Origin: Tridacna crocea
Taxonomy: Eukaryota > Mollusca > Bivalvia > Cardiida > Cardiidae
Reading direction: 5' to 3'
Length of the DNA: 64,000 nucleotides
Assembly (NCBI GenBank): GCA_943736015.1
Contig: OX031057.1
Span: forward strand, 45,222,501 to 45,286,500
This document shows positions 18,765 through 61,622 of this stretch, one piece after another. The notes under the pieces were generated by a model, which was not told where the DNA came from, did no database searches, and saw only the letters and a program-made list of their open reading frames with translations. Each line of letters opens with the position of its first letter. Within the stretch, counting starts at the first letter, position 1. The position numbers and the translations under genes are program-made.

Positions 18765-18956
18765 TCTTGTTACCCCCGAGAAAGAAGCTTTTTGAAAACA
18801 CTGTAGGAAAAGGAGAAAATGCTGGTAACCAGCATTTTCTCCTTTTCCTACAGTGTTTTCTACCCTTCCCAGAACAAAGTTCAATTTTTCAGTCACCTTT
18901 GTCGTCTGCAAATGCTTTCAACCAGTCTATAATTTTGTTGTGTGGTAAAGAGTTAA
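18765..18956 (+). mobile_element. TTAA MITE with two paired arm changes
   Basis: Hairpin arms read CACTGTAGGAAAAGG and CCTTTTCCTACAGTG: two differences from the common arm, both matched in the other arm. Left end lost. Confidence 0.88.
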
Positions 18957-19125
18957 AGACATTTTCTGAAAAGAAGAAAGTGCTGATATCCAACAATTTC
19001 TCAATATTCCACAGTGTGGTCTTCTTTGGATAGTTTCAAAGCACTACAAAATCCTGTAATTTTAAAATGATTTGTTACAGGCAAGAGCTTTATAGTAAAG
19101 GGTTAACCTTCTTTTCAATAAAGGG

Positions 19126-19354
19126 TTAACCCTTTACTCTATAGATACTCATTTCTACACATTGCTTGTAGGAGCCTTTGGAAAACATTGTGACAAAAGG
19201 TGAAATTGCTCATGATGAGCAATTTCACCTTTTGTTACAATGTTTTCTACACTATCAAAAGGTGTCATGTACACATAAGAAACAGCTTCATCCTTGCTGC
19301 TATTTAGGGTCAGTTAGAGATACCATAGAAATGCCTTATGGGGTAAAGGGTTAA
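19126..19354 (+). mobile_element. TTAA MITE, subtype C
   Basis: TTAACCCTTTACTCTATAGA to GGGGTAAAGGGTTAA, heart GGTGAAATTGCTCATGATG with its mirror. Cleanest subtype C copy. Confidence 0.92.
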
Positions 19355-19680
19355 TCTTTTTCCACTCAATCCCAAGTTTTAACAACTCTGAGAAAGAGGC
19401 CTTTTAAAAACATTGTGGATAAAGAAGACAATGCTAATAACAAGTATTTTCTCCTTTTCTCATAACCCATTAGCACATAATAACTACTTTTGACAACCCC
19501 GAGAAAGAAGCTTTTAGAAAACATTGTAGGAAAAGGAGAAAATACTGGTAAACAGCATTTTCTCCTTTTCCCACAATGTTTTCTACCCTTCACAAACAAA
19601 TCTTAATTCACTTTTATTTTGTCGTCTGCAAATGCTTTCAATTTGGACCAGTCTAAAATATTGTTGTATGGTAATGAGAT
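19351..19680 (+). mobile_element. two adjoining MITEs, the first truncated
   Basis: A partial copy (19351-19465) shares TTAA with subtype C on its left; a near-complete copy (ACCCATTAGCACATAATAAC to GGTAATGAGATAA) follows at 19466-19680. Confidence 0.85.
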
Positions 19681-19867
19681 AATGTTTCTTCTCTGTCAAA
19701 GCAATCACTTTAACCTTGTATGCATTGTCATCTGCAAATACTAGGTCTGAATTTTTTGCGACAAAGAGCTTAACACCTAGAGATCACAAATTTATTTTCT
19801 TTGAGCACTGGTGACCATGTTGGTTCCCTCCCAGGGTTGTGAAAATCAGGGCTTGTTAGGTAAACAT

Positions 19868-20081
19868 TTAACCCATTATCTCACAATCCCTACTTTTGAC
19901 GCCTCTGAGAAAGAAGCCTTTTGAAAACACTATGTGAAAAGGACCAGCATTTTCTCCTTTTCCCACAGTGTTTCCTCCCTTCCCAAAATAAATTTCTACC
20001 TTTTAGTCACCTTTATTTTATCATCTGCAAATGCTTTCAATTTGGACCAGTCTAAAATTTTCTTGTGTGGTAAAGAGTTAA
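19868..20081 (+). mobile_element. TTAA MITE, hairpin arm shortened
   Basis: TTAACCCATTATCTCACAAT to GTGTGGTAAAGAGTTAA; about 15 bp of one hairpin arm is deleted. Confidence 0.9.
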
Positions 20082-20388
20082 GAGTACAAGACCCTTAGCA
20101 TAATGATGACATAGTAAAGGTGGTAAGCAGTTTCACAAGAGTTGGTCTCAAAAGGGCACTCGGGTAAGCTACAACATCTAAAAGAAGAGGTACAAAAGAA
20201 ACATATAAACAAGCCAGCGTTTTGTCATGTATATATCTTTTTATTCATCATTTATAGCATGTATGAATTTGTAGAAATTATAACACTAATGCAATGATGC
20301 AATACTTATTGTAAACACGAGGCAATCTATCTATAAACTCAAATTACCATTAGATTTGTTCAAGCACCTTTAAGGTTGTGCCAAGCTT

Positions 20389-20800
20389 TTAACACTTTAC
20401 AACACAATCCCTTTGTCTTAACCCTTTACCAAACAATCCCTGGTTTTTACGACCCTGAGATAGAAGCCTTTTGAAAACATTGTGGGAAAAGGAGAAAATG
20501 CTGGTTACCAGCATTTTCTCCTTTTCCCACAATGTTTTATAGCCTGCTGGAAACCAATTTCTATTTTTGACTCGCATTTATTTTGTCGTCTGCAAGTGCT
20601 TTCAATTTGGGCCATGAGTTAATGACTATGAAGAAGGCTTTAAAAATCATTATGGGAAAAGGAGAAAATACTCGTTTTCAGCACTTATTCCCTTTTTTTC
20701 ACAATATTCTCTACCTTTTCAAAGACGAATTCCAGTAATTTAGGAATAATAAAATTGTTTGCATTTGTCTTCTTATAATGAGTCAGCTAAAGGGTAAACC
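20389..20800 (+). mobile_element. TTAA MITE split by a nested copy
   Basis: TTAACACTTTACAACACAAT runs to CCCTTTGTC, is interrupted by 20418-20622, then resumes with GACTATGAAGAAGGC and a decayed right half. Confidence 0.8.
20418..20622 (+). mobile_element. nested TTAA MITE
   Basis: TTAACCCTTTACCAAACAAT to GGGCCATGAGTTAA with a perfect hairpin, inserted into the outer copy at the TTAA of its CTTTTAATGACC segment. Confidence 0.87.
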
Positions 20801-21016
20801 AAGTTATATATATTTAGAAATACGGGAAAAGATTAATTTTGCTGGTAATAAAAATGTCCCTTTGGAATATTGAAACATTGCAGAAAATAAGGAGCAACTG
20901 CTTGTTACAAAAAATAGCTCCATTTGGCTCAATGTTTTCACTGAATATCACCCTCTGCAAAGGTTAAAAAAAAATCTCATTCTGATAACTATATGTATAC
21001 TTGACTGTTTATCTCT

Positions 21017-21245
21017 TTAACCCATTACCACACAATCCCTACTTTTGACAACCCTGGGAAAGAAGCCTTTAGAAAACATTGTAGGAAATGGAGAAAATAC
21101 TGGTAACCAACATTTTCTCCTTTTCCCACAATGTTTTCTACTCTTCAAAATATGAATCTCAAATTTTCAGTGACTTTCATTTTGTCGTCCGTGAATGCTT
21201 TCGATTTGGACAAGCCTAAAACATTGTCGTTTGGTAATGAGTTAA
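21017..21245 (+). mobile_element. TTAA MITE, first of a chain of four
   Basis: TTAACCCATTACCACACAAT to GGTAATGAGTTAA. Its terminal TTAA (21242-21245) is also the first TTAA of the next copy. Confidence 0.92.
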
Positions 21246-21458
21246 CTCTTTACCAACACGACAAAATTTTAGACTAGTTCAAATTGAAAGCATTTGCAGA
21301 CGACAAAATAAAGGTGACTGAAAATTAAAATTTGATCTGGGAAGGGTAGAAAACACTGTTGGAAAAGGAGAAAATCCTGGTTACCTGTTCCTACAGTGTT
21401 TTCAAAAGGCTTCTTTCTCAGGGGCATCAAAAGTAGGGATTGTGTGGTAATGGGTTAA
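21242..21458 (-). mobile_element. TTAA MITE, second of the chain
   Basis: TTAACTCTTTACCAACACGA to GGTAATGGGTTAA, opposite orientation to its left neighbour; hairpin arm partly deleted. Confidence 0.9.
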
Positions 21459-22961: not shown

Positions 22962-24628
22962 AACAAGAGGGCCATGATGGCCCTGTATCGCTCCACTGGC
23001 TTTTTAACCCTTTACCACACAAAATGAAGTGTTCATGACCATGAAAAAGTGGGCCTTCAAAAACAATGAACGCTGTCAGGCAGTACAAGCAGGTTCACTC
23101 ATTAGCATGAAAGGTAAAATCCTTGGAAAAATAAGCTGAATGATAGAAACCTTACTCTGAATTTATTATTCACCTCATGTGAGCATAACTATTAGCATCA
23201 AAAAAATGAGTAACACTTGAAAACAGAATATTTTCTATCAAAATACTTAATGTCTAGCATCAATCATGTATCAATGCAGTTTGATAATCAAGGGAGGTAA
23301 ATAGTACCAAACTTTATCTTTCATAAAAAGAGTTATTTCCCTTGATTAATGTATAAATTAAAGTGACTATATCATGAGGCCCATGTTAAACTTGTGATCC
23401 CTGGATGGAGCCAATTTTGACCCCAGACCTACAGTATGAAACTAGAATGTGTGGTTATAAACACAAAGATTTTTGAATCTTGCCCAATAAAAAGCCCTGT
23501 AAAACAAGTTTGCTCAATAAAAGGCCCTGTAAAATATGTGACCCATGAGACAGGTTTATAAAGCCAATGTAAAACTTGTGACCCCTGGAATGGGGTCAAA
23601 CTTGACCCCCAAAGTTAAAATTTTGGCCCTCTTGGTAGAAGCCCATTAGATAAAGCTACATGCAAAATTTGGTAGCCCTAGGCCTTATGGCTCTGTACAA
23701 GTAGATTATTAAAGTTTCCCTATATAAGCCAATGCAAAACTTGTGATCCCCTGTGACGGGGGCTAAATTCAACCCCAGGGCTATACTTTTGGACACCCTT
23801 GGTAGAGACCCCCTAGATAAAGCTACATGCAAAATTTGATAGCCCTAGTCCTTATAGCTAGGTGCAACAAGATTTTGAAAGTTTTCCCTATATAAGCCCA
23901 TGTAAAATTTGTTACCCCCTGGGGGCGGGGCCAAATTTGACCCCTGGGCTATAAGTTGTAAACCCTTGGTAGAGGTCCACTAGATAAAGCTACATGCCGA
24001 ATTTGGTAGTCCTAGGCCCTATGGCTAGGTGGAAGAAGAATTTTGAAGTTCTCCCCATATAACCCCATGTAAAACTTGTTACCCCCGGGGCGGGGCCAAT
24101 TTTGACCCCAGGGCTATAATTTAGACACTCTTGGTAGAGGTCCACTAAATAAAACAACATCCCAAATTCGGTAGCCCTAGGCCCTATGCCTAGGTAGAAG
24201 AGGAGTTTTAAAGTTCTCCCTAAATAAGCCCATGTAAAACTTGTGACCCCCGGGGCGGGGCCAATTTTGACCCCAGGGCTATAATTTGAAGAAACTTGGT
24301 AGAGGTCCACTAGATAAAGCTACATGCCAAATTTGGTAGCTCTAGGCCTTACGGTTTCAGACAAGAAGATTTTCAAAGATTTTCAAAATTTTTCAGTTTT
24401 GTTGCCATGGCAACCAGAGTTTTTGAAGGAATTAAATTCTTTCAAGAAATTCTCAAGAGGACCATGGCAGGATCATTTCTGTGAAGTTTCATCAAAATTG
24501 GATGGGTAGTTTCAGAGAAGAAGATGTTTAAAGAAAAAGTTAATGCACGGACGGACGGACGGACGCACGCACGCACGACGGACAACGGGCCATGACATAA
24601 GCCCGCTGGCCTTCGGCCAGTGGAGCTA
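22962..24628 (+). mobile_element. pearl-type (Helitron-like) bivalve element 1
   Basis: Starts ACAAGAGGGCCATGATGGCC and ends with a hairpin (CTGGCC TTC GGCCAG) and GGAGCTAAAAA. Between them are about six degenerate ~165-bp tandem core units (AAACTTGTGACCCC..., TTGACCCCAGGGCTATA, AGGTCCACTAGATAAAGC), then GTTGCCATGGCAACCAGAG and an ACGG/ACGC microsatellite. This architecture is that of the pearl family of bivalves. A MITE end is lodged at 23004-23070. Non-coding. Confidence 0.88.
24547..24583. repeat. (ACGG)n/(ACGC)n microsatellite
   Basis: Four-base tandem repeat near the 3' end of the pearl-type element, its usual place in this family. Confidence 0.9.
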
Positions 24629-25007: not shown

Positions 25008-25231
25008 TTAACTCTTTACCACACGACAAAATTTTAGACTGGTTCAAATTCAAAGCATTTGCAGACGACAAAATAAAGGTGACTGAAAAATTGAAATTTG
25101 TTCTGGGAAGGGTAGAAAATGAGAAAAGGAGAAAATGCTGGTTACCAGCATTTTCTCCTTTTCCTACAGTGTTTTCAAAAGGCTTCTTTCTGAGGGGCGT
25201 CAAAAGTAGGGATTGAGTGGTAATGGGTTAA
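25008..25231 (-). mobile_element. TTAA MITE
   Basis: TTAACTCTTTACCACACGAC to GGTAATGGGTTAA; short deletion at the base of one hairpin arm. Confidence 0.92.
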
Positions 25232-25371: not shown

Positions 25372-25692
25372 CAGAGAAGAAAACATTGTAGGAAATGGAG
25401 CAAATACTGTTTAAGTGGAATTTTTTGTGAGAATGAAATTTTTGTGAATTTGCACTTTTGAATACTAGTAAACCACATAATTTTCTGTTCGCATAATTTT
25501 CCTACTGTCCAGTTATGGATACTTTGCGTACAAACATTTCTGTACGCAAAGTATCCATAACTGTTCATTCGCAAATTTTTTGACACGCATATATCCACAT
25601 ATACAGTATTGCAAATAAGCATTTTCTCTTTTTCCCACAATAATTTCAAAAGCCTTATTTCTTCAGAATTGTTCAAACACAACAAGGGTTAA
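25372..25692 (-). mobile_element. MITE split by a hairpin insertion
   Basis: GAAGAAAACATTGTAGGAAA opens and GCATTTTCTCTTTTTCCCAC closes a MITE whose centre has been replaced by ~230 bp containing the perfect hairpin at 25510-25563. Confidence 0.65.
25510..25563. repeat. perfect 22-bp inverted repeat with 10-base loop
   Basis: CAGTTATGGATACTTTGCG plus TAC, loop AAACATTTCT, then the exact reverse complement. Perfect arms imply recent origin or conversion. Confidence 0.95.
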
Positions 25693-26695: not shown

Positions 26696-26928
26696 TTACT
26701 GACCCTTTACCTAATCTACCAATTTGAGGCTCGTCCATTTCAGCAGCAAATAAAGATATGATGTCAAAAATACAGACAAATGAGGATACAAGTACCTGAT
26801 TGAGTGGAAAACATCGTGGGAAAAGGAGAAATTGCTCGTTACGAGCAATTTCTCCTTTTCCTACAATGTTTTCAAAAGCTGCCTGTTGTTGATATGTCAA
26901 AATGAGTATCTATGGAGTAAAGGGTTAA
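26696..26928 (-). mobile_element. TTAA MITE, hybrid subtype
   Basis: Right end (ATCTATGGAGTAAAGGGTTA) is that of subtype C, while the hairpin is GGAGAAATTGCTCGTTACG with its mirror, intermediate between the common heart and subtype C. Confidence 0.88.
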
Positions 26929-28047: not shown

Positions 28048-28276
28048 TTAACTCTTTAGCACACAAGAAAAATTTAGACTGGTCCGAATTGAAGGTATTT
28101 GCAGACAACAAATAAAGCTGACAAAAAAATAGAAATTTGTTCTGGGAAGGATAGAAAACACTGTGGGAAAATGAGAAAATGCTGGTTACCAGCATTTTCT
28201 CCTTTTCCCACAGTGTTTTCAAAAAGGCTTCTTTCTCAGGGGCATCAAAAGTAGGGATTGTGTGGTAATGGGTTAA
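28048..28276 (-). mobile_element. TTAA MITE with a paired arm change
   Basis: TTAACTCTTTAGCACACAAG to GGTAATGGGTTAA. Arms read AACACTGTGGG and CCCACAGTGTT, matched C/G instead of the usual T/A. Confidence 0.92.
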
Positions 28277-31208: not shown

Positions 31209-34200
31209 CTATGAAACAAAATGTCATTAGTTTTAATATCAGGAGAAAGCTTTTTTTTTCTCTTGCTTTTTATCACTATTTCCAATACCATAATGTAATT
31301 TCAAGTTATAGAAAAATGCTGTATGAATATGGTATATGCCATACTCTGTGAAAAGGGGTTAACACATCAGCAAAAAGGATTTAACCAGGTAAGTCAGCAC
31401 AAGCTTACCTGCATCAAAAAATGCTGCTGTAAGTCAATTTTCTGTATGTCACAGGACAATTCTACTTTATGTTTCAGTTATTTGTTAAACAAAATGGATT
31501 TTATGGATCCATAATCATATGTCGACTGGCTTGGTACATATATAATGCATCATTGAAATGCATGGTAGCCCCTTTTAGCCAGACTGCCACTCCTATAAGA
31601 TTTTGTGTCCACTGATACACTTGAGTGATGTTTAAGTTGAAATACTTGCAGTGTGAGATTTGAAGCCTGTGTAGCTCAAGATCAGAACCACTAATCTAAA
31701 GAGAATTCTCCACTACACAGTTGTTCTTTAAACCAGGATGAAGCCATGCATGAAGGAGTGGTCTCCCATAACAGTATTGCTTCTACATTGTTAAAATAAT
31801 ACTTCAAGAATTATTTGACAACCATGGTTTTAACTAACAAATATTCAGGCGTTTCTACTGCTCTGCAGCTCCAAAAAAGGAGCAGCTGCATAAAATGAGC
31901 CAAGTCACCCTTTTCTCAATAATGTATTAAAAAGCTGTCCTCTGGGTTATTAAAAGTTTTCATTGTGTGGTAAGAAAGTTACGCATCTACTTACTTGACT
32001 TCTCATTAACATCTCAAAGAAACTATCGTCAGGTATATCCTCGTCAATGCGCTGTCGCAGGTACTGATTTATCACAGCCTGGGAGTTCAACCCAGGGAAC
32101 TGGGGTAGATTTGCCCTCTGGTCATTCATCCTTGACCCCTGTATGCCTGCAACCATATCTAGGAAAGTTTCACTGTCAGGGGTGGAAGCTGCAGAGAGAA
32201 TGGCAGTAGAACAAAATAAAAATACTGTAGGATGGTTGCACATACATTGTAAGAAAAGGTGCAACTATCAGAAATAACTAAGAGCTTAATATTGGCTTAA
32301 GTTTTATTGCTTTATGTTATGAGAGATTAAAAAAGAAATAAGGCCTTACCTTTTTTAATTAACCCATTACCACACAATCCCTACTTTTGATGATCCTGAG
32401 AAAGAAGTCTTTAGAAAACAATGTGGGAAAAGGAGAAAATACTGGTAACCACCATTTTCTCCTTTTCACACAATGTTTTCTACTCTTCACTAGACAAATG
32501 TTCAAATTTTGAGTCATTTTTATTTTGTCATCTGCAAATGCTTTCAATTTGGACAGTCTAAAATATTGTTGTACGGTAACCATTTAAATTCTTTACAAAA
32601 ACACAGAATAAAGGCCAAGAAATTTCTAAATAACAAAACAACCACCTTAGTACATGAACTACTCAACATGGTTGTTTTAAAACAATGAAAAGAGAGCTTC
32701 TGATGATACTGTGGGAAGATGAACAAAATGCTGATAACAACAAGCATTCCTACTTATTCCCTCAATCTTTCTACACTTTTAGAGATACATACCATCATAA
32801 AAGGCACATTAATTTGAGCAATGCTCTCTGAAAAGAGGCTCAATGCATCTGCAAAAAGTATCAACCAAGGACCTATATAACATCTCATGCCGTTAAGTTG
32901 ATTGCTAAACAAGGTGGATATTATGGATCTATAAGTATAGGATGGCTTGCTTGGTACCATGGATAACGGAGATCCATAACCCTTTACCACACAATGACGA
33001 CTTTTTACAAGCCTAAAGAAGATGCCTTTTGAAAACTTTGTGGGAAAAGGAGAAAATGCTGGTAACCAGCATTTTCTCCTTTTTTCACAAATTTTTCTAC
33101 TCTATCAAAGAAAAATTGCATCAATGAGCCACTATGAAATTATCACCCACAAATGCTCCCGATTTGGAGAGGTCTAAAATTCTACTGTGTGGTAAAGGGT
33201 TAAGCCCCCTTTTGTAAGAGCAAGGCTCATTGGTTTTCTGCAAATGCTTTCAATATGGATGACAGTAAGACATTGTTATCCAGTATAAAGTTTAAGAATG
33301 ATGCCAACTTGTCTTGAACTGTACTTACCTGTGTTAGATTTTGGAAGAGATTTCTGGTCGCTTTGAGGTAAATCTGACTTTGACAGGCCATTTCTGTCAC
33401 TGACAGTGAGGCTACAACGCTGATCCTCAATACGACGACCTTGAAATTTACTCAGAAGCTCAAAGAAACCATCATCTTCTGGAGATAAAGCCTTGAAAAC
33501 ACAAATAATACATGTTAAAATCCCGTCTCAGATGCAGGTGTTAATCATTTATCAGATTTTAGTATTTAAGTCTAAAATGAAAACAATTGCAAATGACAAA
33601 ATCGTTGTAGTTGAAGTTATTTGATTTGTCCTGTATCGGGTAGCTAGCATCGTGGGTAAAAGAGAACAGGCTAACAACCTGCATTTCCTTCACCTAGAAC
33701 TTTTTCAAAGGCCCTTTCCTCAGTACATGTACACAGCATTTCTTGGTAACAGGTCAACTGTTTACCAAACATACTATAATTCACCTAATTAACCTGCCAG
33801 AGCGCTATACAAAACATGAAAAGGGCGCTCTTATTTCATTACCGATTCCCAAACTTCATTTCTAGATGTTTGCTGGTAACCAGCATTTTCTCCTTTTCCC
33901 ACAATGTTTTCTACCCTTCGCAAAACAAAATCAAAATTTTCAGTCACTTTTATTTTGTGGTCTACAAATGCTTTCAATATGGACCAGTCCAAAACATTGT
34001 CGTTTGGTAATGAGTTAATAGTAGTACAATAAGAGAGAGCATTAATTAGGTGATATATGATTAGTTGGTAGCTGATTTTTTTCTTACAAGCCTCGAGAGT
34101 AAGGTTTTTGAAAACATTGATAAAAATTGACATACATAGTGGCGGCTTCATAGTAGTTCCTTTCTTTATCCCTGTAGTACAAAATCTCAACTTTCAACCA

Positions 34201-37200
34201 CCTTTGGGTAGAAAACTTTTTAATTCGAAACATCATGGAAAAAGGAGAAGATACTGGTAAACATCATTTTCTCATTTCCCCACAATATTTTGTGAAAAAT
34301 ACCTTGATTTTACCCACTTATGATTTGTTGCCTGGAAATGCAATCAGTGTCTCAAATGTATCTCATTTGGGAAAGAGGTTTAAAAAAAAATGTTATTATC
34401 TATTACAGTTTAGCAAGTTCATATTGGCCCTTGTCATACCATATACCAAACTGATTCTTTTTGTGGACAGACTAAACCAAGATGAGCATACACTGAACCT
34501 TAACTTTATCAATTTAGCAACACATCAAGCAGGATGGGGGATAACACTTTTCAAATGATATAATTTTAGACCGGTCCAAAATGGAAGTATGTGCAGACTA
34601 CAAAATTATTGTGACTCAAAAACTGTAATTTGTTATGGGAAGGGAAGAATACTTTGTGGGAAAAATAGAAAATGCTGGTTTCCAGGATTTTCTCCTTTTC
34701 CCACAATGTTTTCAGAAGCCTTCCTCCTTAGATCTTGAAAACAGGGGATTGTTTGGGAAAGGGTTAATTAACCCTTTTCCGAACAGTCCCTGGTTTTTAT
34801 GGGTCTAGAATAGTAGCCTTTTGAAAACATTGTGAGAAAAGGGGAAAATGCTGGTAACCAGCATTTTCTCCTTTTCCCACAATGTTTTCTACCGTATCAT
34901 AGACGGAAATCATCTTTTCAGCAAGAGTTGAATTGTCGTCTGCAAATGATTTCAAATTGGTCTAGTCAAAGAGTTTGTTGTTTGGGAAAGGGTTAAAAGA
35001 ATGATCAAATTTCTCATCAAAATGGTCGAATTACCTCCTCTTTCCTAAGGCTGAAAGTTTCTGATGCTACGCTTTGAGATTTCTGCACCTTTGGTATTTT
35101 AGGTCTGGCCCCGCCATTACTGAAGTCATCTTTCTTGTCTGGCGTAAGCTTCATCAGCTCCATCCTTTCCATACTATGTCGACGTGAGACTCCAGCACGT
35201 CTGTCTGTATAGAAATAGTTTTATGTCACTTACAAAAGTGCTTCAGCCATACTAGAAAGCCGGAAAAAATTATTCATGCCTTTCCTGGATTATACAAATA
35301 CTAGGCTGAGCTTCGCAAGTACATTGCCAATAGACAATCCTATGGCATAAACTAGGTAACCAGCATTTTCTCTTTTTCCCACTGTGTTTTCTGCTCCATC
35401 AAGAATAAATTTTGTCAACTTACCCTTAATTTGACATCAACAAATGCTTTCAATTTGGACTAGCATAAAGTTCTGTGGTTTGGAGAAGATTTAAATGATG
35501 AACTTACACATTCCAACATCTGTGTGATCCATGTCTTTTCTTTCTGAAGTTACACCAGGGTCATTTATACCTAACACTGACCGTAAGTCTGCGAGATTCA
35601 TTTGGGCTGTCACCTGACCTGTCTCATCCCCAATCTGAAATACATTGTGGCATGTGTATTACGCAGTGGTAATTTTCTATTTCCTTATCTGACAAAGTAT
35701 GCTACAAAAATCATACATTCTATCTTTTCCGATGCATTTAAGCACACAGTAGTTACAGATGTCCGTAACTTTGTCTTCCTTACGTTATAACATTTCAATA
35801 TACATGTGCATGAGTCGTGCTCTACAAAGGAAGTTTAACCTCTTCACAATTCATCCACATCGTTTGACACAGGCTGTATCACAAGGTAGATGATTTACCA
35901 TTTGCAAAAAAAGCTTTGATCCTTGTATGCTAGCATGAACTGCACAAGCTGACAAGGATTGATACTTTTTACAATTGACTTAAACTTCTCTTATACAGCG
36001 TAACTCCCAGGTGTATAGCCAAGTTGTACGATGAAACGCTAAGTCAATACATCAGGGGAAAAAATCTGCTCCACAAGGATTTTAAAAACATCTAAGCAAA
36101 AATGAGATAATCTACAAACATTCTCAAAAGAGAAGAAATGACTTGTATTTTCAAGCACTTGTTTGAATCGTCTCACAGAGATAAAGAATCCAGATCATGG
36201 ATTTAACCCTTTATCAAACAATCCCTGCTTTTAACAACCCCCATTAACATTGTAGGAATGAAGAAAATGCTGGTAACCAGAATTTTCTCCATTTCCCACA
36301 ATGTTGTCTTCCTTGCTGGAAACAAATTTTAATTTCTGAGGTATCTTTATTTTGTCGTTTGCAAGCACTTTCAATATTAGCCAGTCTAAAATTTTGTCCA
36401 TGGTAAACGGTTAAGCAAGATTTTTTCCTCTTTTTTATCATCTATCAAATAATCTCAACCTTCAGAAAGAAGACTTTTTAAGAAAAACCAGCATTTTTTC
36501 CTTTCTTTACAAAGTTTTCAACCATTTCAAAGGCAGATACCACTGAGTTTTATCAAACTTGCTGCCTGCCTGAGAATATCTTTCAATTTTGGCAAGCATT
36601 TGTGGTATGTTGAAGAGTTTTATAGGAGCTTGGATTCAAGGTACAAAGGTAGTCAAGATACGAATACAGTCAAACCTGTATAAGACAGCCAGCTCTGGGA
36701 CTGACCCAAAGTGGCTGTCTTATACAGGTGGCTGTCTTATCCAGGTTCTATAACCTGCTAACCGAGGTGACTCATTACATCCAAAATTTTGGACTGACCC
36801 AACTTCAAAGACGCTACAGGCAATAGATTTGATATGGCCAAAAATCATGTAACTTTTACATTTTTTTCGGGATTGTTTGGACTAGAGCTAATAACCCATC
36901 TGAATGACTTGAGAATCCACCAAAATTATTAAATTATTGGACAATTCCCGATTAACTCTTTACCAGACTACAAAATTTTAGACTGGTCCAAATTCAAAGT
37001 ATAAGCAGATGACAAAATTAGAGTGAGTCAAACATTGAATTTTGTTTGGGAAGGGTAGAAAATATTGTGGGAAAAGGAGAAAAAGCTGATTACCAGCATT
37101 TTCTCCTTTTCCCACAATGTTTTTTGAGAGTTTCTTCTCCATAGTTGTCAGATATAGCTATTGTGTGGTAATGGGTTAAAGAAAAAAAAAATCTAAAAAC

Positions 37201-40200
37201 ATATTTAATTTAATCAGGAAGATCGGGTACAGTATAGATATAATCCACAAATAATGTCACAGCCTGGTAGAAATGCTTTACGAAGGTTGAGCGAGCTATT
37301 GTCTCATTATTGTCTCTAGAAAGTCATTCATACGTCAGCCATAGTAAGTGTGAAATGGATGATAAAAAATATGCATGAATGTGTTATAATCTGATCTGTA
37401 TCGGTTTTCAAATTCATCATATTGTTCTACAATGATCGATAATTGAATAATGACACCTGTCAAACTGTGACAATCTCTGACCCATTTTAAGGCTGAAGGG
37501 TGTTTGTTTCCAGCTAATTATCTTCTTTATAGTATTTGGTGGTCATAAAACGATTAACAAATGACCAATTATTGATTTCGTTGTCCAATCAAGCCGATCT
37601 GTAAACAAAAATGGCGGCGGTGTTTTCGATCTTGTTACCCGAGTATACAAGTTTGAAAACTGGTCATCATAAAATTTTGGTGGCGAGTTTATGCAGGTTT
37701 CCGCCAATTTTCGGACCCAAAAGTACTGGCCGTTGGCCGGGTCATGCAGGTGGCGCTCTTATCAAGGTTCATTGTAGAGTAAATTGCACTGGGGATGTAC
37801 GAAAGTGTCTCACTTAAGCAGGTGGCGCTCTTATACAGGTGGCCGATCGGGCAGGTTTGACTGTATATCCATTAAAATCTCCAATTTTCAAACCAACCTA
37901 CCTCTCTGGATATTTCTAGATGTTTGCTGGCATATCTTAAAGCTTCTTCATTCTTCCCTAGAGCAGTATGGGCGTTACCTAAGCTCCAGCATGCCCTGCC
38001 TTCACCCACTTTATCTTTCAGTTCCTGTGCTATTCTCAAATGTTTCATGTGAAATTCTATAGCTTTGTCATAGTCTTTAAGTAGTGTATATGTGTTCCCC
38101 AAACTATAGCAGGCTTGAGCTTCCAATGCTTTGTCACCCAGCTGTTTGGCTATTTGTAATGTTTTTCTGCAATAAAGAGGAATACTGATTAGTTTATTAA
38201 AACCTATTTATTTCACATCCATTTTGATTTTTTTTTTTTTCACAGCCTGTATTGATCACAATCAATGATTGGTTCCGATTACCAGAAATCCCTACTCCAA
38301 CTGTTATATGCATTGATCATAAGGTTGGCCCACCCATCAAAAGATCCAAACCAAACCTTTAATGTGAGGGACCAACACTTTACCTCTAGACCCCGACACC
38401 CACACTAGTTGTTTACCAAGATTCCACTCTTACATTAGTGTTAGAGTCAATAACCTGAGATATAATAGGCCTGTTGAAAAAATTGTGTGAAAAGCAAAAA
38501 TAGCTGATAGCCATCATTTTCTGCTTTTCTCCTTATGTGTTCTACCTTGTCAAAGAACTTAATTCAGTTGTACTGCTTTAACCCATTACCACACAATCCC
38601 TACTTTTGACGCCCCTGAGAAAGAAGCCTTTTGAAAACACTGAGGGAAAAGGAGAAAATGCTGGTAACCAGCATTTTCTCCTTTTCCCACAGTGTTTTCT
38701 ACCCTTCCCAGAATAAATTTCAATTTTTCAGTCACCTTTATTTTGTCGTCTGCAAATGCTTTGAATTTGGACCAGTCTAAAATTTTCTCATGTGGTAAAG
38801 AGTTAAGTTTTGTCCTCTGCCAATACTTTCAATTTTGAAGAGTCAAAAATTTGTTGTGCAGTAAATGGTTATGTTACCTATTATGGTCAGCAGCAAAGGT
38901 AAAAATTGTAGTAAATCTTTACCACACACAAAAAATATTCGTGGAGAATAATTTAAACATGGTTCAATTGATGAAATTTGTCTTTTATAGCACAGAAAAA
39001 CATGACGGGAAAACGACAAAATACTAGTTACCAACACCTCTTTTCCAATAATGTCTTCATCCGGCTTTTGCTACAGGCTTGTCAAAATGCGGAATTGTGT
39101 GGAAAAGGATTGACTTACCTATAATGGTCAGCAGCAACCTCAAATTCACCCAGAAATATATGGGCATTACCAAGATTGCTATACGCTCTTCTTTCAGCAG
39201 CTTTGTCACCAAATTCACGAGCAATTGCAAGCCTCTGAAAAGAACATTTCAAGAAAACATGAAATTTGTTTATAATATTTGAACACTTTCGTTGTATCAC
39301 AACTTATTTTCAAGAATGTCTTATCCAGTCAGGTGCCTAATCTTGGGATTAAGAAAAAGGATCAAACTAAATATGGTTGTTGAACAGGGGTACTAGATTT
39401 TTTTTTTAATGTCATATTTTAACCCTATCCCAAACGACAAATTTGGGACCAGACCAAATTAGCATTTTGCAGATGACAAATTAACAGTTGCTAAAAAGAT
39501 GATTTTTCTATATGATAGAGTAGAAAACATTGTGGGAAAAGGAGAAAATGCTGGTTACCAGCATTTTCTCCTTTTCCCACAATGTTTTCAAAAGGCTTCT
39601 ATTCCTGACCCGTAAAACCAGGGATTGTTTGGGAATGGGTTAAGTAACCATTGAAGTCTTATAATGAGGAATAACTGGTTGATCCTCATCTCTTTACCGT
39701 TCCATCTTGAGTAACCAGCATTTTCTCCATTTCCAACAGTGTTTTCTACCCTTTCTGAGACAAATCTAAATCACTTTGTTACATCTATTTTGGCCTCTAA
39801 AATTGCTTTCAATTTGGACTAGCCTAAGATTTTGTTGTTTGATACAATTAGCTCCTTACCAGACCATGAGATTTTTTACTTGTCCAAACTCAAAGCACTT
39901 GCACTTGCCGCACTATAATTAGTCCTTGAATGGGAAGAATATGGCGGTAACCTTAATTTCCTTCTTTTACTGGAATGTTCTTAGACACCTTTCTTCAGGC
40001 TTTTACAGCAGAGTAAAGTCTGCTAAAGTTTGCAAAAGGATTATGGCATTTTTGCCTAAAATATCTCACAATATACTAAACAGCAAAGGTCAAAGATCAG
40101 GCAGTATATTCTATGCAGTCTGATCCTGATCTGCATATGAAGCACAGTAATTTTTATTCTCTACTCAATATAAAGATCCAGTAATAAAAACATAAATGGA

Positions 40201-43200
40201 TACCTCTTGATGGTAAATTATAGCTTGACTAAAGTTCCCAAGGAGGTAGTGTGTGTTACCAAGGTTACCACAAGCCCGACCCTGGGCAGCTCTGTCACCC
40301 AGCTCTTGAACTATGGCAAGGTTAGCTCTATAACATGAAAAAAGTAAGTCAAGTACATGAACATGTTGCCCACAACTTACAATCACAAGCATATCAAGTG
40401 ACTACACAACATTTGGTTTTTGTGGTATTTAAAACCATTTTCAACTCGTTTCAGAATAATCGCAGCAGCCAGTGCACCTAAAATTTCCTTTTACCAGTAT
40501 ATCCCACAACATTCTTCGTAAGTCGCTGCTTCTCACATAACCATTGTCCAAACAATGATGAGCTGTGAGACTAGAATAAATCATGTCACACTGACTATCA
40601 TCAATCCTCAGAAAATAATTCTCTGTGCTGCAGATTCAAACCATCAACTCCCCTGTTCTCAAGCCCTGTAAACTACCAACTGTGCTACACTGGCTTGACT
40701 ACACAACAAGATTTTTTAAAATTCAATAAATTAAATGGTTATCATCTTCGTCCGTTACAACTGCTCCATCTCATCTCCTTTACCCTTTACCAAACAATCC
40801 AGAATTAACTCTTTAACTCTTTACCAAACAACAGAATTTTCAACTGGTCCAAATTCAAAGCACTTGCAGATGACAAAATGAATGTGACTGAAAATTTGAT
40901 CTTTCTTTTTGGAAAGGAAGAAAATATTGTGGGAAAAGGAGACAATGCTGGTTACTAGCATTTTCTCTTTTTCCCACAATGTCTTCAGAAGGCTTTTTTC
41001 TCAGGGTCATTTTCAGTCGGGATTGTGTGGTAAAGGGTTAACAAATGACAAAATTCTGGACTATACCAAAATCAAAGCATTAGTAGATAACATATTCATT
41101 TTAGCTAAATTGATGATTTCTCTCTGTGAAAGGATAGAAAACATTGTGGGAAAAGGACAGAAATATAGTTATGTGCATTTTCTTCTTTTTCTACAATGTT
41201 TTCAAAAGGCTTCTTCCCAGGGTTGTTAAAAATCAGGATTGTGTGGTAAAGACTTAAATAACCCTTAGATAGAAAGCTTTTTACTCTTTACCAAATGAAA
41301 ATAATTTAACCTTGTCTAAATTGAAAGCATTTGCAGACAATCACACATACCTCAAAACATGAAATTTGTCTTTCCTAGAGTCCAAAACATTGTGGAAAAA
41401 GGAGAAAAAGCTTGACACCGAACATTCATTTAGTGAGGTATCAACAACAAATCTCTAGCTCAAAGTCACTGACTTGTTTTTCTCATAAGAGCACAAGCAT
41501 CTCTCAAGATTAAGTGTAGCTCATCAGCTGGAATATTGCAATCTACTTATGATTAAGAAAATCACTTTCTACTACAGTAGATTCCGCTTATTTGCAAGTC
41601 CTATTTGTCAGAGAAAATATTGCGAATAAGCAGTCGGCCCGATAATCCGATGGCTCTTTTCAGACCGGAAGTCAAACCAGAGTTGCAGACGATCGTTTCG
41701 TTCTATTGACAGACGTTCAGCTCTTGCATCCCGATCATTTGATTAATGTTCATAATTTTTTTAATTATATGTATTTCAAACTAAACAAGTTTTAAAAAAA
41801 TCGTTTGTTTGCTTATTTACCTATCAAGTGCACAAAGCACCAGAAACGATCCTGGGTGTTAGCCATGGTGGTGCTTCGTTTGGCATAAAATTCAGCACAA
41901 ACTTTTTGTCAACACAGGTTTCGATGCATATCTTCAGTTTCCGGTTATCTAACATTTACTCCATGTGTACATGTACATTCTTACACAACATTATCGTGTA
42001 CTGTGCACCTGTATAAACCCCGACTTGCCATCTGTTAGGTTGAATGGGTGGGTAATTTTGGTTGACGTCATAGACTGATTGCCGCCCAGACGATTCTATT
42101 TTAACGCATCAATATAGGCCATACCATTCAAAGCAGACCGAAATAAGAAACGGTTTTCTGTGTTTTTCACAGTTTACATTCGGTACACCGTACTTTCACG
42201 CCTGTAGTCAAATTGTTTGTCACAAATTGGATTATCGACGAGACACTAACAAACAGTTAAGTTTTTTTTCCCCCAGTGTGTAATTATCTGATCGGTGATA
42301 AGTTATTTTGATTGGTCTTTCTTGTAACGGGTAAAGTGCCGAATTCGTTGCTTTCGGGGAGCGTAGATAAAGATCAGACTGCACAGAATGTGTTGTCTGA
42401 TCATAGAACGTCTATGTTCGTTTTTTTTTTTTTTCCCCCGAGTTATACCAAGACAAGATTTAAGTACATGTAGTCATCTTTTCGCCAATTTTCCGGCCCT
42501 AAAATTACCATTTTATTAATCAGTGCTCTTGATTGTGGATGTACAGCCTGGTACCCTAAATCTCGAGTAACCATCCAATAGTTTGAAAATCGGCAACCAG
42601 TGAAGCTCCATATTTAGAATGTCGGCCATTTGCAGATGTTTTGTAACCGTTATTACACTTTCTTAAATGAAAAGAATAACATGAAATACGCCAAGAATTT
42701 TTATCTTTAATGATTAAATTATGAAAACAAATCATGTCGGTCTCGTCGTTTGTATATTGCTACATTGGCTTTTAATCTGCGATTCTCTGTACGCATTGAA
42801 ATTCGACTTTTATCTTTTTGAGTAACCTTTTTTTTCCCGGACAGATTGAAATTTTTCGCTGTCTTATCCCACGGAATTGCTAATAAACACTAGAATTTCG
42901 AATCATGTGCTAAATTTTCGTTGCAAAAAACCGAAATGTTCTATTTACGGGATCCCGATTAAGCGTTGAAATTTACGTTGTCTAGATAGGAAATGGATCG
43001 GTGCTGGACCAAATCTTGCAAAAAACCGAAAATCCCAATAAACAGGGTTGCGATTAAGTGGAATCCACTGTACAAACTTGTTTTAGCCAATCTCTGTTTC
43101 AATAGTCCAAGAGAAGACTTTGGAAAAAAGAGGAAATTCCGGTAAGTAAAATACCTCCTTTTCTTACAATGTATATGTACCCTTCCAAAGAACCAATTTC

Positions 43201-46200
43201 AAATTTTGAGTATCGTTTGATGTGTAACTCGTAAATACCTTCAACTTGGACAAATCTAAAATTACACCATTTGGTACACAGTTAATCCTAAGACTGCTTA
43301 GCACAACCCATTGACCATTTGAAGACAGTGTAGATTAAGACCAGACAGCAAAGAATGTGCATTCTGATCTTGGATCTACACTATCCAACAAGGAAACAAC
43401 AGTTGCTCAACTTGATCCAGACATATGAACTTACTCGTAGTATTCAGCAGCTTTTTCCAGGCAGTCTTTAACCTCAGGTGGGAATTCCCCTGGGTCCTGG
43501 TTCCCAGATCGACCTGTATGTTTCCCTTTTGCATGGTACACATTGCCCAGATTGTACAATGCTCTTGCTTCCCCTATCTAATCAAAGAACACATAATGAC
43601 TTTAGTTAAACTCATGCAGGGAACCACTCAGGATTATTCATAATCAAAACAAACTTTAGTGGTGCCAATGCTCGACTGCAATAGCTTTTAGCGAAGCTTT
43701 TAAAACAAGTAAGGGGCATTACTGTGTCAAATATATACTGATGGTTACTTAGTTTGATTTCCTCTTTGAACAGTTTTCAAAAGTTTAAGTTTGAACTAAA
43801 TATCTTCAGTAATGATAGAGATACAGGTGCTATAAATTGTCAGAATTGTTGTGCAATACAGTCAACGGTGACAACAGGGCTGTGACAATACATACCTCAA
43901 TGTTTTCTTCAAAAACAGCCAAGTTAAACAGCTGCCAAACATTCATCAACTTATTCAGAAAAAATCTTTCATAGGGAGAAGCAAAGAAAGAGTATTACAC
44001 AAATTTTTGTAAAGCAAACCAAAAAGTAGATGTGAATGAAAGACAGGGAGAGTCAGAAGGCAAGGAAGGAATAGAAGGAAGGTGGAAAGTTAAAAGGAGG
44101 GAGAGCTGTATTATGTAAATGTATACACATACTCTGTCTTTTAACTCTCTAGAGAGTTCTAAATGCCGTAAACAGCAAGCTATAGCTTCATCAAACTTGC
44201 CCAGTACTTTGAGAGTATTGCCCAGGTTGCCACTAGCTTTTGCTTCACCGACTCTGTCACCCAGGGTTCTGCAACAAAAAAGTACCAACATGCTTTTGGG
44301 AATATTCAAGTCATAACCATAGAAATAAAATAGAAAACTTTTGATTTTTTTTTTTTTTAGGGAAAAACAACAATTTCAGTTGACAAGCAATTTCTACCTA
44401 AGACAGGTAACCCATTCTCTGTGAAATTGGAGCTTAATGCATCTCTACGATGCAATTTATTAACCCTTTGCCACACAATAATGACTTTTAAAGAACCTGA
44501 GGAAAAAGCCCTTTGAAAACATTGTGGGAAAAGGAGAAAATACTGGTAACCAGCATTTTCTCCTTTTCCCACAATGTTTTCTACCCTATCAAATGAAAAT
44601 TGCACCATTTGAGCCACATTGAAATTGTCATCCGCAAATGCTTTCAATTTGGACAAGCTTAAAATATTGTAGTTTGGTAATGAATTAAGCAATATGGTCT
44701 GCAACAACTGAAAAGGGGCATTCAGACATTTGAGTAAAGTGTCATCTCGGATCAGCCTGCGCAGTCTGCACAGGCTAACCTGAAACAATACTTTCTGTTT
44801 TCATGTAATTTTGTATTTTGTGCTAGTCTACTGTATCACAAAATCCAATATAGTCATAAAGTGCCTTGTCAGATTAGCCTGTGCGAACTGTGCAGGCTGA
44901 TGAGACAACACTTTATGCAAATATCCCAATACCCCTTTTCATGTGCTGCAAGCCATATAAGTATGGATCCATAAAATCTATTTTATACAACTGGCTAAAT
45001 CCTGAGGTACACTGATCTATTTGCATGCAGAAAAATTACTATAAGCAGAAAGTTCTCACCCAGGTGAACCTACAGAGATTGCAGGCTAACCCAAATCCAT
45101 ACTTTTTTCAAAAGCATTAAGCCTTTTCACAAACCATAGCTCAAGCATTTCTATTTTGTGCCACTTGTACTGGCTTTATCTGCTAAACAGTGTTGTTTAT
45201 CATTACAAGAGCTTTGTACTTTTTAAATATCCCTTCCAAAGTCCCAAACAACAATAAAGATAATTGGGAAGAAGAATGTTACAAACTTTTACTACTTATC
45301 AAGATTGACAAGCATGTTCATTGCCAACCCTAGTATATGCGGCTAAAGTTTACTCACCTTGTTTTTAATTTCTTGCTCAGGTTCATAAACACAAAGAGTG
45401 CATGACAAAAGTTGAAAGTTAACAGGTAAGAGAGTTTCATCTTTCTCTGAACTAAAAGCTACCACAACCCTCTTCCAGCCTGCCCTCTTCCCAGTAAGTC
45501 TTTAATCAATCCTTTACCACACAATCCCGACTTTTAAAGACCCTGTGACGGAGACCCGTTGGAAACATTGTGGGAAAAAGGAGAAAATGCTTTTAAACAG
45601 CATTTTCTCCTTTTCCCACAATGTTTTTCTACCCTTTCCAAAGCAAAAATTTATTTTTGAGTCAAAGTACTTTTGTCGTCTGCAAATGCTTTCAATTTGG
45701 ACAAGACCAAAATTTTGTTGTTTAATAAAGAGTTAAATCAATGGAAAAAGCCTTTCCCCTAACATTCAAATGTATCTCCTACATATCACTAAAGCTCCTG
45801 ACACAGGGAGTGATTTTGATTTCAAAATTGAAAATGTTAATTACTCTCCACTAAACTCTCTATTGTAGGTACTCATTAGAATTGTCTGGATGAGACATAT
45901 CTAATAAGTACCCACAACAGAGGGTTCTGAAGAGAAATAGTGGATTTAGAAAACCATCAGCCCCTCTTCTCTGAAGATCTGTATCACCTAGAATGCTTTT
46001 TACAATTGAGTCTAAAAATCAGACTGTCTGCTATGACAAAAAGGAGCTTCTTACCTTGCTAAATTGAGATCATGTTTATGGTATTCTAAAGCTTTTCCAA
46101 ACTCCTGTAAGTAGAAGTAGGCATTTCCAAGCTGACTATATATTGCACTTAATGTTTTTAAGTCATCAGTCCCAGAATTAACTGCAGCCTCAAAGAACTG

Positions 46201-49070: not shown

Positions 49071-50659
49071 AACAAGAGGGCCAAGATGGCCCTGGATCGC
49101 TCACCTGAATTTTTGAGATGACCATAGTCTATTTTTTTTTTGAGGTATTGAAACATTGGAACCAAATTTATAATTTTGCCAAGCAATTTTCAAAAGGTCA
49201 CCTGTAAAAGTCATTTCGAAATCTGACCATCAGTTTCAAAAAGAAGAATTTTTAAGAATTCTTCATTTCTGTATAAGAGCAAGTAGCCCCCATCCACGAG
49301 AGCCATGTTTCTTGATGGATCAAAATTTACGAACAAGTTTTGAAAAGGGTCACCCAAGGAACATCTCTCTGAAATTATTTCAAAATCTGACCAGGGATTC
49401 AGAGAAAGAGAATTTTAAAGAATTTCATCATGTCCGTATAGTGCAAGTAGCCCCCATTCACAAGAGCCATGTTTCTTGACGGATCAAAATTATATGTACA
49501 GCTTTTGGAAAAGGTCACCCAAGGAACATCTCTGTCAGATTATTTTAAAATCTGACCACGGGTTTCAGAGAAGAAGAATTTTCAAGAATTTCTTCATTTC
49601 CATATAGTGCAAGTAGCCCCCATTCACTAGAGCCATGTTTCATGGCCAATCAAAATTTCGCGAACAGTTTTAGAAAAGGGTCACCCAAGGAACATCTCTG
49701 TGAAATTATTTCAAAATCTGTCCAGCCATTTCAGAGAAGAAGAATTTTCAAGAATTTCTTCATTTCTGTATAGTGCAAGAAGCCCCCATTCACCAGAGCC
49801 ATGTTTCTTGACCAATCAAAATTTCGCGAACAATTTTTGAAAAGGGTAACCCAAGGAACAAGTCTGTGAAATTATTTTATAATCTGACCAGCGGTTTCAG
49901 AGAAGAAGAATTTTTAAGAATTTCTTCATTTCTGTATAGTGCAAGAAGCCTCCATTCACCAGAGCCATGTTTCTTGACCAATCAAAATTTCGCGAACAAT
50001 TTTTGAAAAGGGTCACCCAAGGAACAACTCTGTGAAATTATTTCAAAATCTGACCAGAGGTTTCAGAGAAGAAGATTTTTTAAGAATTCCTTCATTTCTG
50101 TATAGTGCAAGAAGCCCCCATTCACCAGAGCCACATTTTTTGACGGATCAAAATTTCACGAACAATTTTTGAAAAGGGTCACCCAAGGAACATCTCTGTG
50201 AAATTATTTCAAAATCTGACCAGAGGTTTCAGAGGAGAACATTTTTAAAGAATTCCTTCATTTCTGTATAGTGCAAGAAGCCCCCATTCACTAGAGCCAC
50301 ATTTTTCAACGAATCAAAATTTCACGAACAAGTTTTGAAAAGGGTCACCCAAGGAACATATCTGTGGAATTATTTCAAAATCTGACCAGCGGTTTCAGAG
50401 GAGAAGATTTTTCAAAAAATTTGCTAAAAAATTCCATTTGGTTGCCATGGCAACCAGAGTTTTTAATGGAATCAAATTCTGTGAACAATTTTTAAAGAGG
50501 ACCTCCCAAGGAACATTCCTGCCAAGTTTGGTCCAAATCCGCCCAGCGGTTTAGGAGGAGTTGATGTTTAAAGAATTGTTGACGACGCACGACGGACGAC
50601 GGACACCGGATGATCCTAAAAGCTCCCCTTGAGCACGTTGTGCTCAGGTAAGCTAAAAA
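49071..50659 (+). mobile_element. pearl-type (Helitron-like) bivalve element 2
   Basis: Starts AACAAGAGGGCCAAGATGGC and ends with hairpin GAGCAC GTT GTGCTC then AGGTAAGCTAAAAA. Seven ~166-bp core units (markers GTCACCCAAGGAACATCTCT, AGCCCCCATTCACCAGAGCC, CTGACCAGCGGTTTCAGAG) begin near 49350, 49515, 49681, 49847, 50012, 50179 and 50344. GTTGCCATGGCAACCAGAG and a GACGGACGACGGAC tract precede the 3' hairpin. Non-coding. Confidence 0.9.
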
Positions 50660-51117: not shown

Positions 51118-51352
51118 GTAACTCTTTACCACACAATCCCTACTTTTAATGACCCTGAGAGGGAAGCCTTTTGAAAACATTATCATTATGGGAAAAGAAA
51201 AATATGCTGGAAACCAGCATTTTCTTCTTTTCCCATAATGTTTTCTACCCCTCCCAAAACTAATTTAGATTTTTTATTAACATTTGATTTTTCGTCCACA
51301 AATCCTTTCAAACTGGACCAGTCTAAAATTTTGTCGTTTGGTAAAGAGTTAA
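51118..51352 (+). mobile_element. TTAA MITE
   Basis: GTAACTCTTTACCACACAAT to TTTGGTAAAGAGTTAA. Hairpin arms carry a paired change (ATTATGGGAAAAG with CTTTTCCCATAAT) and a small ATTATC duplication. Confidence 0.92.
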
Positions 51353-54169: not shown

Positions 54170-54199
54170 ATGGAATCTGTAACAAACCAACTACTTTTT

Positions 54200-59697: not shown

Positions 59698-59699
59698 AT

Positions 59700-59962: not shown

Positions 59963-60176
59963 AGGCAATAAAGGGTTAAAAGTTAACTTTGTCTCTGAAA
60001 GAGTAGACAAGAATATGGGAAAAGGAGAAAATGATAGTGACAAGCATTTTCTCTTTTTGTCACATTTTTTTAAAGTAATTTTCTCGGGTGTCCCTAAAAT
60101 GCAGCGTTGTTTAGAAAAGGGTTATCTGTAATTCATGTTGACTTCCATATTTAACATTTTTACCAACAACAATATC

Positions 60177-60318
60177 TTTACTCTTTACCAAATGACAACA
60201 TTTTAGGCTGGTCAAAATCGAAAGCATTTGCAGACGACAAAATAAAAGTGACTGAAAATTTGAAATTTGCTTTGTGAAGGATAGAAAACATTGTGGGAAA
60301 AGGAGAAAATGCTGGTTA
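60177..60318 (-). mobile_element. half MITE, cut at the hairpin centre
   Basis: CTCTTTACCAAATGACAACA to GGAGAAAATGCTGGTTA, then replaced by the 60324 element. Confidence 0.85.
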
Positions 60319-60323
60319 AGGAT

Positions 60324-60529
60324 AGGGCATCCTAATGGGATTCTTGTAATATTGCCTTTCAACATCGAAAAAGTAACAATTCGGCTAAGACTGGTATAAA
60401 TCCATAATTAATGCTGAGAACCAGCATTTACTAGCCGATCGATTACGGATTATCCGAGACTTAGAAGCCGAATCCATACATTTTTCAGCGTTGAAAGGCA
60501 ATGTAACACAAATCCCATTTGAGTGCCCT
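60324..60529. mobile_element. 206-bp MITE with AGGGCA ends
   Basis: Its ends AGGGCATCCTAATGGGATTC and (mirrored) AGGGCACTCAAATGGGATTT continue as ~40-bp inverted repeats to GCCTTTCAAC. Unrelated to the TTAA family; sits at the centre of a broken TTAA MITE. Confidence 0.88.
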
Positions 60530-60619
60530 GTCCAAATTGGAGGCATTTGCAGGTGAAAAACCTGGTAACAGAAACTCCTGGAAAGCATGGATTAGTGCAC
60601 TGCCAGCCAAAGTAATTGA

Positions 60620-60665
60620 AATAATGATAAAAATGTCGTTAAACACAATACAATCAATCACTCAA
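60620..60665 (+). mobile_element. SINE 3' tail fragment
   Basis: ATGTCGTTAAACACAATACA+ATCAATCACTC matches the tail of the SINE at 18296. Confidence 0.65.
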
Positions 60666-60826
60666 ACAATAAGGCAAACTTCCCAAATTCCTCAAATGAT
60701 GAAATCTGTCCTCAATAGGGTAGAAAAAATCATTGGGAATCTCAGTAGTTTCAAAAGACTTCTTCCTCAAGGACATGAAAATGCTGGGTTTTTGGGTAAA
60801 TGGTTAGAAAAAAAAAATTGTAAAGA

Positions 60827-61055
60827 TTAACCCATTACCACACAATCCCTACTTTTGACGCCACTGAGAAAGAAGGCTTTTGAAAACCCTGTGGGAAAAG
60901 GAGAAAATGCTGGTAACCAGCATTTTCTCCTTTTCCCACAGTGTTTTCTACCCTTCCAAGAACAAATTTCAATTTTTCAGTCACATTTATTTTGTCATCT
61001 GCAAATGCTTTCAATTTGGACAAGTCTAAATTTTTCTCGTGTGGTAATGGGTTAA
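60827..61055 (+). mobile_element. TTAA MITE, full length
   Basis: TTAACCCATTACCACACAAT to GTGTGGTAATGGGTTAA. Confidence 0.94.
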
Positions 61056-61288
61056 GAAGGAAAAAAATTCAAGACATGATACACCCTATGTTTCACTCTA
61101 GTTCCTTGGGATGAGATGGCAAAACATCAGACTGCAGAGATTGCATAATGCAGCATTCCATTGTTGTGAAGGGTCAATTACCATGAGGAATTGGATTGAA
61201 ATTTTCAGTTCAGGAGGCAGCCTGAAGTCACAGAAATTGATAGGTAGAATCTTGATACTTCCTCTTATTCAGCAATACAAATCTTATG

Positions 61289-61622
61289 TTAACCCTTTAC
61301 CAAGGAATTCCGGATTTTTAACGTCCCTTAACCCCTTACCATACAATCCCTACTTTTGACGACCCTGGGAGAGAAGACTTTAGAAAACACTGTGGGAAAA
61401 GGAGAAAATGCTGGTAACCAGCATTTTCTCCTTTTCCCACAGTGTTTTCTACTCTTCCCAGAACAAATTTCAATTTTTCAGTCACCTTTATTTTGTCGTC
61501 TGCAAATGCTTTCAATTTGGACCAGTCTAAAATTTTCTCGTGTGGTAATGGGTTAAAGAAAGCTTTGGAAAGATAGAGGGAAAAAGGGACAAAATGCTGG
61601 TTACCATCAATTTTCCTTTTCA
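61289..61622 (+). mobile_element. TTAA MITE split by a nested copy
   Basis: TTAACCCTTTACCAAGGAAT to AACGTCCC, interrupted by 61328-61556, resuming AGAAAGCTTTGGAAAG; right half lost. Confidence 0.8.
61328..61556 (+). mobile_element. nested TTAA MITE with a paired arm change
   Basis: TTAACCCCTTACCATACAAT to GTGTGGTAATGGGTTAA; arms AACACTGTGGG and CCCACAGTGTT match each other. Confidence 0.94.

Follow-up and report, generated by a model that had tools for sequence, protein, structure and literature searches.

Low divergence and inherited mirrored changes in the internal palindrome of a TTAA-type MITE family from Tridacna crocea

Introduction

Miniature inverted-repeat transposable elements (MITEs) of the TTAA type are described from Acropora corals, in which the internal region of the so-called CMITEs differs less from family to family than the terminal inverted repeats (TIRs) do, and has been suggested to play a role in transposition (PMC2872659). 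Here we analyse a TTAA-type MITE family with a long internal palindrome, found in 64,000 nucleotides of the bivalve Tridacna crocea (assembly GCA_943736015.1, contig OX031057.1, positions 45,222,501 to 45,286,500 of the forward strand); this whole stretch is referred to as the window. The window MITE shares with the CMITEs the TTAA target duplication and a well-conserved interior, and several CMITE families have CCCTTT ends (PMC2872659). However, CMITEs are only ~100 bp long, whereas the window MITE measures ~230 bp and carries its long palindrome, and the main text of the CMITE report contains none of the terms palindrom-, hairpin, stem-loop or secondary structure (PMC2872659). A search for 43 bases of the published CMITE core (PMC2872659) found no match in the window at up to 3 mismatches.

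Palindromes are described at the ends of piggyBac and piggyBat, where they are bound by paired transposase cysteine-rich domains (CRDs) (PMC11707139). The piggyBac palindrome measures 19 bp; those of both transposons are short and terminal, whereas that of the window MITE is 67 bp long and internal. An influence of internal MITE sequence on mobility is described for mPing, a rice element, although, by contrast with the present case, the abstract of that report makes no claim about a palindrome (PMC9921582). No literature title naming an element such as the window MITE was among the matches listed, within a limited collection and set of search terms.

The MITE family and its palindrome

The family was collected within the window by a profile search seeded with a single copy (61329..61556). 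This yielded 114 hits, fragments counted, which occupy 18,492 of the 64,000 bases and are described by a model of 228 columns. The element has TTAA at its ends, inverted repeats and the internal palindrome, in which 33-bp arms surround a one-base centre. Among 33 full-length copies TTAA is present at the low end in 26 and at the high end in 29, counts that are partly circular because TTAA lies inside the model. The consensus TIRs are TTAACCCTTTACC on the left, where the first T belongs to the flank, and TTAACTCTTTACC on the right, reverse-complemented. The left tip is CCCT in 18 of 45 copies and CCCA in 15, and the right tip starts with CTC in 23 of 44 and with CCC in 8; the CC[C/T]T tip that is a hallmark of piggyBac (PMC2872659) is thus present only in part. 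Both the short size and the high copy number are those of MITEs, and from the 230-bp size the element is assumed to be non-coding and non-autonomous. The family is best described as a TTAA-type MITE that is perhaps piggyBac-like. mPing belongs to another superfamily. As single-stranded DNA, a copy with a perfect hairpin folds at -38 kcal/mol (z -13.8). Exact-pattern scans of viral contigs and of genome contigs returned 0 matches each.

Arms vary far less than flanks

Sixty-four of the 114 hits had at least 20 scored arm pairs and at least 60 flank sites. Eight of them, being old, poorly aligned or of another subtype (5538, 43111, 19127, 26702, 515, 21646, 33542, 32687), were set aside, leaving a set of 56 copies. 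In this set the distance between the two arms of one copy is 0.165 and that between the arms of different copies 0.192, compared with 0.453 for the interior flanks and 0.248 for the TIRs. Removal of CpG and gap-rich flank columns (55 copies) leaves 0.158 within and 0.187 between copies for the arms, and 0.433 for the flanks. The excess above the within-copy value, which separates change before insertion from change after it provided that in-place decay is the same for both regions, is then 0.029 (0.016 to 0.043) for the arms and 0.275 (0.240 to 0.320) for the flanks; intervals derive from 150-200 bootstraps. In shared trinucleotide contexts, the arms have 335 changes in 3619, compared with 729 expected from the flank rates. 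CpG or base context is not supported as the source of the low arm change, since the gap persists with CpG columns removed and with contexts matched.

Detection bias was considered as another source of the contrast. Flank-only profiles recover 55 of the 56 copies, but these profiles were derived from the same copies, and the search was therefore redone without any hairpin sequence, from the right flank of a single copy. This search found 49 of the 56 (missing 10587, 3682, 20620, 59978, 46667, 11136 and 38914), and these 49 give the same picture: 0.145 within and 0.173 between copies for the arms, and 0.427 for the flanks. The left flank was not used in this search and has 0.421. The simplest reading is that the arms would have been nearly fixed before insertion and would afterwards have decayed one at a time.

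Mirrored changes are few and partly inherited

An earlier, sequence-only reading of the window had proposed that the palindrome arms change in matched pairs, naming sites at 18765, 28048, 61328, 51118, 19126 and 26696. The mirrored letters are present at all of these and their hairpins were located. Across the 64 copies, 42 matched double changes occur in 2027 scored arm pairs, compared with a mean of 13.1 and a maximum of 24 in 500 shuffles, and this per-copy excess is real. The named sites were nevertheless a selective list, as the same copies hold 331 single-arm changes, about eight for each matched one, and 22 non-matching doubles.

A separate MAFFT alignment leads to a similar result. Thirty-six copies have gapless hairpins, of which 34 were analysed (18955 and 21695, both heavily decayed, were omitted), and these show 12 pairs changed on both sides, compared with 3.0 in shuffles and 3-7 in controls with slid partners. 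Once seven rows are removed (five copies of a subfamily with a CACTG variant, one of subtype C and one hybrid), the remaining 27 hairpins retain 4 pairs, compared with 2.1 in shuffles and 2-5 in slid controls. In this reduced set the observed value is reached by just 10-24 of 500 shuffles in three of five shuffle measures (10/500 for the covariation score). The CACTG copies contribute 8 of the 42 doubles, subtype C 6 and the hybrid 2 (together 16). In the 54 copies outside these groups there are 26 matched doubles, where 17.5 are expected from column frequencies and copy rates.

Age divides these copies further. The 16 old copies, with flank divergence 0.275 as the cut, hold 13 matched doubles against 11.6 expected, which is the chance level, while 36 younger non-subfamily copies hold 9 against 3.7, a small excess that may reflect further private changes in the source. 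Four of the eight copies dropped from the 56-copy set belong to the old set, and the younger set omits the poorly aligned 5538 and 43111, which have 2 matched doubles each. The old-copy cut and the removed rows were chosen post hoc, with the table already seen, and several other sets and cut-offs were likewise selected after looking.

The matched changes at pair 8 have a common origin. Eight copies carry the CACTG variant at this pair, and in all seven in which both sides are readable it is matched (7/7). A tree of 53 copies with at least 95 flank sites each, drawn from non-hairpin columns only, groups the eight in one clade (ultrafast bootstrap 83). Among 41 variants tested, no arm position other than pair 8 has variants that cluster at p <=0.01. 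Of the four main-family sites that had been named, three (18765, 28048 and 61328) have the pair-8 change, which is therefore most simply a single event. Other recurrent changes behave differently. Left pair 28 is changed from G to A in 12 copies and is matched in none of the 11 scorable carriers; repeated G to A changes in left arms and C to T changes in right arms affect several pairs.

A few inherited variants together with chance largely explain the mirrored changes, and recurrent paired mutation, which the per-copy excess does not show, is unsupported. What the sequence-only reading had itself regarded as fatal, paired changes no more frequent than chance or ancestral subfamily differences, is largely what the main family displays, apart from the younger copies.

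Subtype C and the hybrid

The tips and the palindrome are common to the main type, to subtype C (two copies) and to a hybrid (one copy). The hairpin aligns to that of the main type with z 12.3 (C) and 16.7 (hybrid). Alignment of the right interiors gives z 3.0 for C and main type, 4.4 for hybrid and main type and 2.1 for C and hybrid; the values for the left part are 4.7, 4.7 and 9.1, respectively. Since a search with the hybrid recovers main-type copies at full length, C and the hybrid are relatives of the main type. Their palindrome centres had been called wholly different, which overstates the case: of 33 pairs, C differs from the main type by 6 matched pairs and 1 single change and the hybrid by 2 of each. 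That these differences are mostly matched (8 of 11 changed pairs) was borne out.

Like that at 19127, the second C copy is matched at pairs 21, 26 and 31, as well as at pair 14 on inspection by eye, while its pair 13 is G-T. The two C copies also differ at pair 32. This pair falls in a CpG found in both arms, and parallel CpG decay may account for the difference.

Individual copies

The copies referred to above, and others of interest, are the following.

18772..18956, +, CACTG-subfamily MITE (model 33-228), hairpin 18794-18860, matched pairs 8 (C-G) and 12 (A-T)
19127..19354, +, subtype C MITE, hairpin 19181-19247, matched against the main type at pairs 13, 14, 21, 26, 31 and 32, single at pair 12
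10765..11018, +, second subtype C copy, nested in a main-type copy (10587-10764, resuming 11018-11070)
26702..26927, -, hybrid MITE, single copy, hairpin 26807-26873, matched pairs 26 and 31, single pairs 9 and 12
28048..28275, -, CACTG-subfamily copy, hairpin 28154-28220, matched pair 8
61329..61556, +, CACTG-subfamily copy and search seed, hairpin 61383-61449 with perfect arms
51119..51352, +, copy with 2 matched changes, hairpin 51184-51240, matched pairs 10 and 20, 3 singles, CATTAT duplicated in the left arm
38579..38806, +, CACTG-subfamily copy, matched pair 8
60828..61055, +, CACTG-subfamily copy, matched pair 8
19869..20081, +, CACTG-subfamily copy, matched pair 8, 14-column deletion extending to the hairpin centre
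21242..21457, -, CACTG-subfamily copy, matched pair 8, pair 12 is A-A
25008..25230, -, CACTG-subfamily copy, partner of pair 8 lost to a 5-column deletion, pair 12 is A-C
39419..39642, -, main-type copy, hairpin 39523-39589 identical to the consensus although the flanks are 0.261 from it
33871-34018, 35355-35494 and 39711-39844 (+), 3226-3367, 41283-41419 and 60180-60318 (-), half copies

The main-type pieces on either side of the nested C copy correspond to model 1-172 and 176-228, and the insertion at 10587-11070 provides the relative ages of the two elements. By eye, the right arm of this C copy contains a tandem duplication of ~25 bases (10850-10900).

The six half copies keep the right half of the element, with start points slightly to the left of the palindrome centre (model columns 80-87). 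The adjoining sequence does not clearly match the missing halves, the case at 33871 being borderline (z 3.8). Truncation ends fall within columns 78-98 in 12 of 65 cases, with 7.6 expected (p 0.07), no more than a hint that truncation prefers the hairpin centre. The hairpin shows no enrichment of deletion ends, with 32 of 104 compared with 33.2 expected.

A candidate module for mobility

On balance, we lean towards the view that selection for mobility maintains the palindrome as a cis module of this TTAA-type MITE, a function inferred from the pattern of sequence change. Each insertion would begin with near-perfect arms, and after insertion the two arms would decay separately, with no repair. 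A copy whose arms are badly spoiled would rarely become a source, so that the palindrome would be held by purifying selection. Occasionally a source lineage would exchange its symmetric sequence for a different symmetric one, and the copies descending from it would inherit the changed pair. The preferred cause is a two-fold symmetric cis site bound by a dimer of the transposase or of a host protein; a palindrome conserved in the source lineage would fit such a protein site, by analogy with piggyBac and piggyBat. The second choice is a DNA hairpin or cruciform that would be required for mobilisation. Selection on the hairpin, one of the two causes that the sequence-only reading had offered, thus gains indirect support from arms that vary far less than flanks, whereas the part of the claim that concerns symmetry rests on few cases, namely pair 8, the single-copy hybrid and the two-copy subtype C.

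A wider version of this proposal is more tentative and, in our judgement, falls short of even chances. It holds that the palindrome is a required symmetric module for mobility, more conserved than the TIRs and common to MITEs whose right interiors align weakly, and that arm mismatch dates insertions. If the arms match at the start and decay independently, their mismatch would date each insertion, as the divergence of long terminal repeats (LTRs) does for retrotransposons.

Several observations weigh against selection for mobility or its wider version. Slower decay of the arms in place would imitate part of the contrast between arms and flanks, and the younger non-subfamily copies show their small excess of doubles. 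Imperfect arms can be inherited: left pair 12 is changed from G to A in the related copies 18772, 21242 and 25008 (clustering p 0.015) and is matched in 18772 alone. Variation in the flanks is mostly private, with 8.64 of a tree length of 9.61 on terminal branches, and variants of the left and right flanks are weakly associated (44 of 3686 tests, compared with 8 shuffled); both disfavour a simple picture of few sources. In the flank tree, 1 of 50 internal nodes reaches a support of 95. The full-length recovery of main-type copies by the hybrid indicates that the C and hybrid interiors are related to some degree. Arms of 33 bp exceed what a dimer site requires. Finally, the evidence comes from one 64-kb window.

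Alternative explanations

The strongest competitor, which we consider possible yet rather unlikely, dispenses with selection: subfamily inheritance would combine with chance at mirrored, mutation-prone positions, and the arms would vary little owing to slower mutation in place or to homogenisation. The fall of paired change to the slid-control level once seven rows are removed agrees with this, as do the recurrent G to A (left) and C to T (right) changes, the common and mostly unmatched variants at left pairs 12 and 28, and the pair-32 difference between the C copies, if it represents CpG decay in each arm. It is harder to reconcile with arm change that, in identical trinucleotide contexts, runs below half the rate of the flanks, with matching in 7/7 readable CACTG copies at pair 8, or with the 8/11 matched differences of C and the hybrid.

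Templating of one arm by the other, through template switching or quasipalindrome correction in resident copies or at each transposition, was the second cause offered by the sequence-only reading and appears improbable. Such a mechanism is documented for the hairpins of RNA genes and predicts matched stem changes (PMC8794818), and copy 51119, with its two matched changes, and the 9 doubles against 3.7 expected in younger copies could be read in this way. The window MITE, in contrast to those hairpins, has neither an excess of private doubles in old copies (13 against 11.6) nor an inverted loop. Neutral copying between arms at the pre-insertion rate of the flanks would produce ~296 doubles, an expectation that depends on the clock argument drawn from arms and flanks, compared with 26 seen in 1772 cells (CACTG copies account for 8 of the 26). 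Inversion of the hairpin would exchange the base at its centre; in the 56 copies this base is A in 49, T in 2, G in 2, C in 1 and a gap in 2, and across all 92 scorable hits it is A in 74 and T in 7. For comparison, 70 further A columns have a mean A to T change of 0.055. With old-copy doubles at chance, roughly ten times too few doubles and a centre that is not inverted, recurrent templating is not supported.

Selection on the hairpin as RNA, for instance as the precursor of a small RNA or as a structural part of a transcript, is very improbable: the perfect stem is highly stable and human mir-548 genes are described as derived from Made1 MITEs (PMC1784062), but the window holds no Rfam family at gathering score, and a strand-specific wobble bias is not supported, as single changes on the model strand number 59 of G-T type and 73 of A-C type.

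Other features of the window

An open reading frame (ORF) at 37872-38207 (-), TPR-like, matches chains of G-protein-signaling modulator 2 (LGN/Pins; GPSM2) with E 2.4e-80, and many of the MITEs in the window may therefore sit in introns of this gene. A second ORF, at 43995-44375 (-), is TPR-like by eye. A tRNA scan of the window returned 0. Long tandem arrays occupy 49213-50415 (unit of 166 bases) and 23557-24378 (unit of 165 bases). Three unrelated hairpins lie at 25510-25563 (23-bp perfect arms, by eye), 13576-13641 and 45854-45926, and a MITE-like element with long inverted ends (by eye) at 60319-60518 adjoins a main-family half copy.

Implications

For palindromes inside MITEs it is hard to decide from structure alone whether they are by-products or working parts. 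Subfamily inheritance can imitate covariation if copies, rather than events, are counted. A dense family with a possible palindrome clock, such as the one described here, would allow change in the source lineage to be separated from decay in place, within a single genome.

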